Position numbers and translations under genes: made by a program. From positions 74,030,953-74,094,952 of the forward strand of contig CM049311.1 in NCBI GenBank assembly GCA_026874595.1: a DNA stretch of 64,000 bases, given 5' to 3'. Source of the DNA: Sipunculus nudus. Taxonomy: Eukaryota > Annelida > Sipuncula > Golfingiida > Sipunculidae. The notes beneath the pieces are model-generated. The model had not been told where the DNA came from and ran no database searches. It worked only from the letters and a program-made list of their open reading frames with translations. Every line of letters begins with the position of its first letter. Within the stretch, counting starts at the first letter, position 1. Shown piece after piece: positions 49,570-62,097 of the stretch.

Positions 49570-49825
49570 CTAAAAGTTGTCGATAGTACAAGAATTGCTG
49601 TCCCAGCTGAAAACGTTGACGAAACCGCAGCGAGCCATATGGTTTTTGGATGAGTAGGGTGTGACTCCACCAGCCGTGCCGCCACAGGTCCTGTCTTGCG
49701 TCCGGTCGTATTCCCAGCCAGAGTTGGTGGCGTAATTCGTCAGGTAACCTTTGAATTCGAACCAACCATTCTCAGATTTAGAGCAATCCATGTCCGCTTC
49801 GAACATCCAGTAGTGCTCACCAAAG
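49570..49825 (-). CDS. AMY: Amylase exon 10 (end of C-terminal module, stop)
   Basis: Acceptor TTTTCAG|CTTTGG. Encodes [30 protein letters not shown], a Cys-containing [20 protein letters not shown] stretch and ends [19 protein letters not shown], stop TAG at 49570-49572. Confidence 0.87.
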
Positions 49826-61800: not shown

Positions 61801-62097
61801 GGATCAAATTTAAGATGTCATTCCTATAGATTGGCCAAAATCCTATAGATTGCTTTATGAAATATTAAGAAGAATTATAGCATTGGCTAAGTGTAAAACA
61901 CATTTCTCTGATTAATCTTTTCTTTAATATTAATTTCTTCCATGTGTTTGTTATGAAGCTAATTTAGAATAAAATGGTCATGATACTATTGTTCCAACAT
62001 TAGGAAACCTCTCAGCGGGTCATAGTGTAAATGTGTCCTCTTAACAGAAAACTTGTCTGTACTCACTCAACAAGGCAACAAAGACGCTTTTCCCCAT
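49570..62097 (-). CDS. AMY: Secreted two-catalytic-domain alpha-amylase with C-terminal module
   Basis: GH13 alpha-amylase: endo-hydrolysis of alpha-1,4 bonds in starch/glycogen, here predicted secreted (digestive). Ten coding exons (62067-62097, 60461-60600, 59607-59764, 57554-58728, 56914-57149, 56469-56626, 53131-54305, 52508-52735, 50261-50492, 49570-49825) have compatible phases (1,0,2,1,0,2,1,1,2) and GT/AG borders. They total 3789 nt, 1262 aa. Signal peptide 1-15 (cut after ALA); amylase unit 1 about 16-501; Pro/Gly/Thr linker 502-544; amylase unit 2 about 545-1024; linker 1025-1071; Cys/Trp-rich module about 1072-1262. Catalytic D214, E250, D315 and D737, E773, D838 are present, as are chloride ligands R212/N313/R352 and R735/N836/R875. 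Calcium-site INHMCG/VNHMCG and the GHGAGG loop are kept. Usual animal amylases have one such unit (about 500 aa). The alternative, two genes, is less likely: unit 1 has no stop or polyA and unit 2 no signal peptide. Confidence 0.88.
50261..50492 (-). CDS. AMY: Amylase exon 9 (C-terminal module)
   Basis: Acceptor ATTCCAG|GTTGCA, donor ATAC|GTAAGT, phase 2. Encodes [40 protein letters not shown] and [20 protein letters not shown]: rich in Trp/Tyr/Asn, suggesting a carbohydrate-binding surface (inference). Confidence 0.87.
51935..52115 (+). repeat. tRNA-derived SINE in amylase intron 8
   Basis: A-box-like TAGCGAAGCGGTTGGAATGC and B-box GGGTTCGAATCC lie about 50 bases apart. They are followed by a non-tRNA body (CTGAATCGGCCCAATGTTTT) and a small hairpin ending TATCCGCAAAACTTTGTTTT. 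This head plus body is the layout of a tRNA-derived SINE. It is inserted antisense to the amylase gene. Confidence 0.7.
52508..52735 (-). CDS. AMY: Amylase exon 8 (linker and start of C-terminal module)
   Basis: Acceptor TTCTAG|AATCCC (phase 1), donor GCAG|GTATAA (phase 1). Encodes [20 protein letters not shown], a Thr/Pro-rich stretch to [10 protein letters not shown], then [20 protein letters not shown] and GGIGHTVRA. The latter is the first strand of the extra module found C-terminal in some invertebrate and bacterial amylases. Confidence 0.87.
53131..54305 (-). CDS. AMY: Amylase exon 7 (TIM barrel and domain C of unit 2)
   Basis: Acceptor CCCTACAG|AATCTA, 1175 nt, donor GCAG|GTGAGA, phase 1. 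Carries the same motifs as exon 4: [14 protein letters not shown] (D737), [12 protein letters not shown] (E773), [12 protein letters not shown] (D838). Roughly nine of ten residues match unit 1, with no net length change. Confidence 0.95.
54898..56440 (-). repeat. GCTCAGCTGAC-family element, inverted copy in amylase intron 6
   Basis: Reads on the minus strand from TTTTTAGCTCAGCTGACTGA (56440), through GTCCGTCTGTCCATCCGG-like sequence, to the GGCCCATGGGCCAC end near 54900. It holds four to five units of about 335 bp with the AACAGGGCACAAATCGTAAC and GGTGGCGCCACCTGT blocks also found in ATG5 intron 4. A G run lies at 55222-55236. Confidence 0.8.
56469..56626 (-). CDS. AMY: Amylase exon 6 (unit 2)
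   Basis: Acceptor TCTACAG|GTCTCC; encodes [40 protein letters not shown] and [12 protein letters not shown]; donor GTCGG|GTACAT, phase 2. 158 nt. A GCTCAGCTGAC-family element starts about 28 bp beyond the donor. Confidence 0.93.
56914..57149 (-). CDS. AMY: Amylase exon 5 (linker fused to strand beta-1 of unit 2)
   Basis: Acceptor GTTACAG|AATCAC (phase 1) and donor CAG|GTCAGA (phase 0). The 5' part encodes [20 protein letters not shown], a near match to the start of exon 8. The 3' part encodes [20 protein letters not shown] and on to FCGVQ, a near match to exon 2. No intron separates the halves, so this exon joins the two catalytic units in one reading frame. Confidence 0.9.
57554..58728 (-). 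CDS. AMY: Amylase exon 4 (TIM barrel and domain C of unit 1)
   Basis: Acceptor TTTCAG|TATCTT, 1175 nt, donor GCCG|GTAATA, phase 1. Contains [14 protein letters not shown] (D214), [12 protein letters not shown] (E250), [12 protein letters not shown] (D315) and [11 protein letters not shown] (R352), then domain C to MVAFHAG. No stop precedes the donor. Confidence 0.95.
58729..59606. other. Amylase intron 3
   Basis: AT-rich intron between exons 3 and 4, with a C run near 58841 and a poly-G tract at 59579-59594. Nothing else seen. Confidence 0.6.
59607..59764 (-). CDS. AMY: Amylase exon 3 (unit 1)
   Basis: Acceptor CCTCCAG|GTTTCG; encodes [40 protein letters not shown] and [12 protein letters not shown]; donor GTGGG|GTAGGT, phase 2. 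158 nt, the same as exon 6. A poly-G tract lies directly downstream of the donor (59579-59594). Confidence 0.93.
60130..60212. repeat. (TA)n/(TATG)n microsatellite in amylase intron 2
   Basis: TATATGTG-type units grading into a pure TA run. Confidence 0.9.
60461..60600 (-). CDS. AMY: Amylase exon 2 (strand beta-1 of unit 1)
   Basis: Acceptor CTTTTAG|GCACAG; encodes [40 protein letters not shown] and GFCGVQ; donor CAG|GTACGA, phase 0. This is the classic start of animal alpha-amylases. Confidence 0.93.
60601..62066. other. Amylase intron 1
   Basis: AT-rich intron between the signal-peptide exon and exon 2; only short TA runs near 60975 and 61062. No gene seen. Confidence 0.6.
62067..62097 (-). 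CDS. AMY: Amylase exon 1 (signal peptide start)
   Basis: [10 protein letters not shown] plus one base, donor TTGA|GTGAGT, phase 1. A short exon carrying most of the signal peptide. It is found by its phase fit to exon 2 (Ser-Thr-Ala-Leu-Ala completes the signal) and by the TATA box just upstream. Confidence 0.85.

Follow-up and report, generated by a model that had tools for sequence, protein, structure and literature searches.

The 64,000-nt stretch of Sipunculus nudus DNA analysed here (the window; C6:74030953-74094952 in a 1.43-Gb assembly of 153 contigs) contains a gene that probably encodes one secreted alpha-amylase with two competent catalytic units in series, apparently born of one unequal exchange; we put the probability of this reading at about 0.83. 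It draws on features observed directly in the DNA, namely the gene model, the active-site motifs, purifying selection on average, a doubling within the lineage, and a chimeric exon at the junction of the units. A preliminary description of the window had proposed one gene with two units, and this proposal is supported by the sequence, the coding constraint and the splice phases, and by the fact that no second start could be detected. From these data we infer a single message and a single 1265-aa product.

The gene occupies the minus strand from 62097 to 49570 and consists of ten exons in a single frame, the sole stop being the terminal codon. All nine introns have GT-AG borders and compatible splice phases (Table 1). 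The order of elements in the protein is as follows: a split signal peptide, amylase unit 1, a linker, unit 2, a second linker, and a C-terminal module (C-module). The ten exons in one frame of the preliminary description stand, and the exon ends that it gave on either side of two junctions (57554/57149 and 53131/52735) were recovered exactly, but its length of 1262 aa has to be replaced by 1265 aa. It had also placed a stop codon and polyadenylation signals only after unit 2 and the C-module, in agreement with AATAAA at 49548 and 49544 and with the absence of both AATAAA and ATTAAA from intron 4 (57553-57150), which follows unit 1. A TATA-like sequence (TATATATAAC) is present at 62146, near exon 1; TATA-like runs are common in this region.

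Table 1. Features of the two-unit amylase gene, in window positions.
Feature	Position	Strand	Content
Exon 1	62067..62097	-	Start codon with the first half of the signal peptide; GTGAGT donor, phase 1
Exon 2	60461..60609	-	Residues 11-60: rest of signal peptide and beginning of mature unit 1
Exon 3	59607..59764	-	Unit 1, residues 61-113
Exon 4	57554..58728	-	Unit 1: D217, E253, D318, chloride ligands, domain C
Exon 5	56914..57149	-	Chimeric junction exon: linker 1 and N-terminus of unit 2, without signal peptide
Exon 6	56469..56626	-	Unit 2, counterpart of exon 3; 127/158 nt identical
Exon 7	53131..54305	-	Unit 2: D740, E776, D841, chloride ligands, domain C
Exon 8	52508..52735	-	Linker 2 and start of C-module
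Exon 9	50261..50492	-	Middle of C-module
Exon 10	49570..49825	-	End of C-module and stop codon
Polyadenylation signals AATAAATAAA	49539..49548	-	AATAAA at 49548 and 49544, about 20 nt past the stop

Two translation starts were considered. An alternative start at 60673 extends exon 2 and gives a nine-exon model of 1276 aa with a longer hydrophobic N-terminus. The start at 62097, with the signal peptide split by an intron, is preferred, because four of the six paralogs shown have, by eye, a similarly placed AG acceptor within the signal peptide, and because an excerpt of PMC3096672 describes, for this region, an intron position specific to molluscs, although its orthology is unsure; the nine-exon model is kept as the alternative. 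A pattern scan for a mini first exon in four paralogs yielded one weak candidate in each of two and none in the other two. No second signal peptide was found before unit 2 in the unspliced peptides starting from the eight ATGs in 57553-56980, a scan whose reach does not include a spliced mini-exon elsewhere. The best 8-residue hydrophobicity among these ATGs was 1.26, compared to 2.38 for the start at 62097, which agrees with the earlier assignment of a signal peptide to unit 1 only.

Two further features of the window lie outside the gene. A match to the beta-lactamase-fold family PF00144 (E 1.8e-9) comes from an exon-like open frame on the minus strand, 7246-7605, whose N-terminus is hydrophobic, and two near-identical open frames of 90 residues (27177-27446 and 31126-31395, minus strand), about 4 kb apart, suggest a repeat.

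Unit 1 (residues 22-505) and unit 2 (residues 545-1028) comprise 484 residues each and align without gaps, with 416 of the 484 positions identical (86%). Counted from motif positions, the catalytic triads are D217/E253/D318 in unit 1 and D740/E776/D841 in unit 2, and the Arg/Asn/Arg chloride ligands, also placed by motif, are R215/N316/R355 and R738/N839/R878, respectively; these residues are presumed to occupy the triad and chloride positions of pig amylase. The motifs of the triad, the chloride ligands and the glycine loop each occur once per unit, and matches to amylases of solved structure span the whole units, which bears out the previously described two full units, each with a triad and three chloride ligands. 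The best match was 3vm5, which we take to be a fish enzyme, with 690 bits for unit 1 and 662 bits for unit 2, the matches covering query residues 1-484 and 2-484. With such lengthwise matches to solved amylases, a chance resemblance to this family is out of the question. In Pfam, domain C was found in two stretches, but for the catalytic model a single stretch passed, in unit 2. In alignment A2 the conserved columns were all within unit 2. No N-glycosylation sequons are present in the 1265 residues, compared to 9.6 expected from shuffled sequences, none of 5000 shuffles being free of sequons; six paralog exons contain 0, 5, 1, 0, 1, and 0 sequons.

The units are well diverged. Overall pS between them is 0.64, and dS is 1.43; two 40-codon windows have lower pS (0.36 and 0.48), which may reflect some exchange between the units, so that this dS is not a clean clock. 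With dN of 0.083, omega equals 0.058, a value averaged over both branches, from which, given the faster evolution of unit 2, equal activity of the units does not follow. Homologous unit exons are 80-84% identical, and the three homologous intron pairs are no more similar than the best of 20 shuffles, pair 3/6 being above the shuffle mean. The coding constraint together with the lack of detectable intron similarity speaks for maintained function of both units. When 3vm5 serves as the outgroup, 26 of the 481 compared sites carry changes unique to unit 2 and 10 carry changes unique to unit 1 (chi2 7.1), and at 31 sites both differ; unit 2 thus appears to evolve somewhat faster than unit 1. Conservation of the motifs and the constraint point to catalytic activity of each unit.

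Linker 1, between the units, is 39 residues long, and linker 2, between unit 2 and the C-module, 46 residues; both are rich in Gly, Pro and Thr and contain no Cys. The C-module had no matches in Pfam, NCBIfam or PHROGs and nothing credible in the PDB, where only three antibody chains were hit (E 0.48-0.93). An AlphaFold prediction for the C-module alone from a single sequence failed (mean pLDDT 28.8). A homolog was found at the end of a 667-aa Pseudoalteromonas amylase (37% identity, 99% coverage, E 8e-33), whose module we take to be of the AHA type, with a presumed role in secretion. In the window gene, a module homologous to this type is present downstream of a GH13 unit. The C-module was not found in phages; it was found in two plasmid records, both from Pseudoalteromonas, and in genome_contigs none of its eight pattern matches was confirmed.

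A search of the genome with unit 1 gave at least 56 matches, which, grouped by eye, correspond to the window gene, a single remote match on C14, and at least about 12 further amylase loci. Five of the other loci among the matches listed are on C9, three on C17, and four on C2. A second set of unit exons was found in none of the about 12 other loci among these matches, in line with the earlier remark that a single unit is normal for animal amylases. A C-module match follows the unit in all eight C9 and C17 loci in the fetched DNA. Some of the eight are not intact: matched exons contain stop codons at C17 near 54.40 Mb and at C9 near 30.09 Mb, the N-terminal exon is absent from the stretches fetched for the locus at C17 near 53.886 Mb, and for the C9 39.4-Mb locus only the genome search showed N-terminal exons. 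The C2 loci had no C-module match, and a stop directly follows the unit in all three that were examined (parts of three of the four loci were fetched); therefore, the two C2 neighbours near 92.13 and 92.15 Mb do not represent another fusion. The three C17 copies at 53.873, 53.886, and 54.400 Mb are near-identical and probably represent recent duplicates or an assembly effect. C-module matches without an amylase unit in the fetched stretch were seen at L058 (C10:59.58 Mb) and L045 (C9:30.078 Mb), with no neighbouring unit match among the genome matches listed, and at L047 (positions 3378-4434, C9 near 30.098 Mb) the final part of the C-module, residues 154-191, occurs in three consecutive copies.

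The unit query gave 28 loci in genome_contigs, and none of the 28 had a second full unit or a C-module in the fetched stretches; one of them, L012, had a single weak partial match on the other strand. None of 17 pattern matches in viral contigs was confirmed, and in plasmids the unit was found in 14 records, at one place in each.

In a maximum-likelihood tree of the main exon region (14 rows: the two window units, ten paralog rows, 3vm5, and a Pseudoalteromonas amylase, without C2:85.36 Mb and C9 near 30.09 Mb), the window units group together as sisters (support 100/100), and hence the doubling occurred inside the window gene. An intron near residue 155, present in the C9 and C17 paralogs, is missing from both window units, so this state predates the doubling. 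By path length, the paralog at C9:30.025 Mb is the nearest to the window units, its placement as their sister being unsupported (59/45).

The structure of exon 5 suggests how the doubling arose. Its first 61 nt match exon 8 (48/61), and its 3' part matches exon 2 (105/125); judging from these matches, exon 5 is a chimera of the linker exon that precedes the C-module and the exon that starts the mature enzyme. The single-unit paralog at C9:30.025 Mb, with a unit exon, an intron, and a linker exon, shares with the window gene both the junction codon and the ESRVGSGGG linker start. The ancestor would have been an ordinary single-unit gene, with signal peptide, unit, linker, and C-module. One illegitimate unequal exchange within this gene would have fused, in frame, the 5' portion of one copy's linker exon with the beginning of another copy's mature-enzyme exon, so that in a single step unit 1 would lose the C-module and unit 2 the signal peptide. 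Such a reconstructed event is the simplest account of the fusion, as it would explain unit 1 without a C-module, unit 2 without a signal peptide, and the similar divergence of the linker and the units. A tandem duplication and a subsequent deletion would produce an identical trace and are an admissible alternative; in that event the units could have diverged before they were fused.

The two-unit product would fold into two chloride-dependent endo-amylases acting on starch, flexibly tethered like beads on a string, with two active sites per secreted molecule and possible avidity on granules. As to a putative benefit of the tether, a simple dose effect of two active sites is ranked first, before avidity on raw starch and processivity. 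Gly/Pro/Thr-rich linkers are often sensitive to proteases, and the secreted chain could be cut in a linker to give two separate amylases (dosage by fusion). This alternative, which can coexist with the main gene model, is possible, if unlikely: the length and composition of the two Cys-free linkers favour it, but the six-unit GH1 enzyme of shipworm, according to an excerpt of PMC5840672, retains all units in its mature digestive form. A stronger version of the tethered enzyme, in which a double amylase has been selected as such, with both heads binding one granule, skipping of 523 codons switching between one- and two-headed forms, and the faster change of unit 2 reflecting divergent specificity of the two heads, is doubtful.

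Alternative splicing from exon 4 to exon 8, which would make the gene produce mainly a single-unit enzyme and the two-unit form only rarely, is improbable. Exons 5-7 indeed form a symmetric block of 1569 nt between phase-1 introns, and skipping it would be in frame and give a 742-aa product with signal peptide, unit, linker, and C-module, the architecture of the C9 and C17 paralogs. However, the splice sites of exons 5-7 are compatible and of the GT-AG type, and the average constraint (omega 0.058) is less likely for a rarely used block.

Two independent head-to-tail genes mistaken for one are a very remote prospect. Tandem amylase genes are known in several animals (PMC3096672, as excerpted), and a hemichordate tandem pair was wrongly annotated as a single gene, according to an excerpt of PMC7003070. 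Here, however, the scan of unspliced peptides revealed no signal-like start before unit 2, the first exon of unit 2 opens in frame with linker sequence, at the same phase-1 junction that is seen ahead of linker 2, and neither AATAAA nor ATTAAA occurs in intron 4. A misannotation of the hemichordate type is argued against by the chimera at the junction and by the fact that no second signal peptide was detected, and a separate gene for unit 2 was rejected, no start or signal having been found in the unspliced scan. Finally, an assembly artefact or haplotype duplication, suggested by two large unit exons about 3.2 kb apart on one contig and listed in the preliminary description as a possible refutation, is practically negligible: it is ruled out by dS of 1.43 (pS 0.64) and the lack of detectable intron similarity, and the window contains no N.

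Compared to known systems, the window gene is a variant of a familiar enzyme rather than a new kind of system. Each of its units aligns lengthwise with animal chloride-dependent alpha-amylases (GH13_15/GH13_24, e.g., the pig pancreatic enzyme), with the triad, the chloride and calcium motifs, and domain C. The solved relatives among the matches listed, however, have one unit of about 450-520 residues, while the window gene encodes two units, linkers, and the C-terminal module. The order of unit and C-module is that of the Pseudoalteromonas amylase, but the 667-aa bacterial protein has a single unit with a short join to the module, in contrast to the two units and long linkers found here. In the paralog at C9:30.02-30.03 Mb, the large exon is 74% identical to that of the window gene, and a C-module is present as well; it differs in having one unit and the residue-155 intron. 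The closest precedent for the design among the papers found is shipworm LpMDGH1, in the excerpt of PMC5840672 a bivalve digestive enzyme that is secreted and whose repeated catalytic domains are connected by short linkers; the catalytic domains are likewise repeated here, but LpMDGH1 is a GH1 protein with six units acting on beta-glucans, and the window gene an amylase with two. No tandem animal amylase was among the literature matches listed, which is weak evidence of absence, GenBank predicted proteins being outside the scope of that search.

The window gene departs from the usual architecture of one unit per protein, with two units in a single open frame; one unit per amylase is an architectural habit and not a requirement of the family. 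The gene looks like a natural animal amylase with two active sites, whose units are well diverged yet constrained, and its chimeric exon would document how a single in-frame exchange can create a multi-unit gene. The single-unit relatives in the same genome are ready controls for the effect of joined units on the attack of raw starch.
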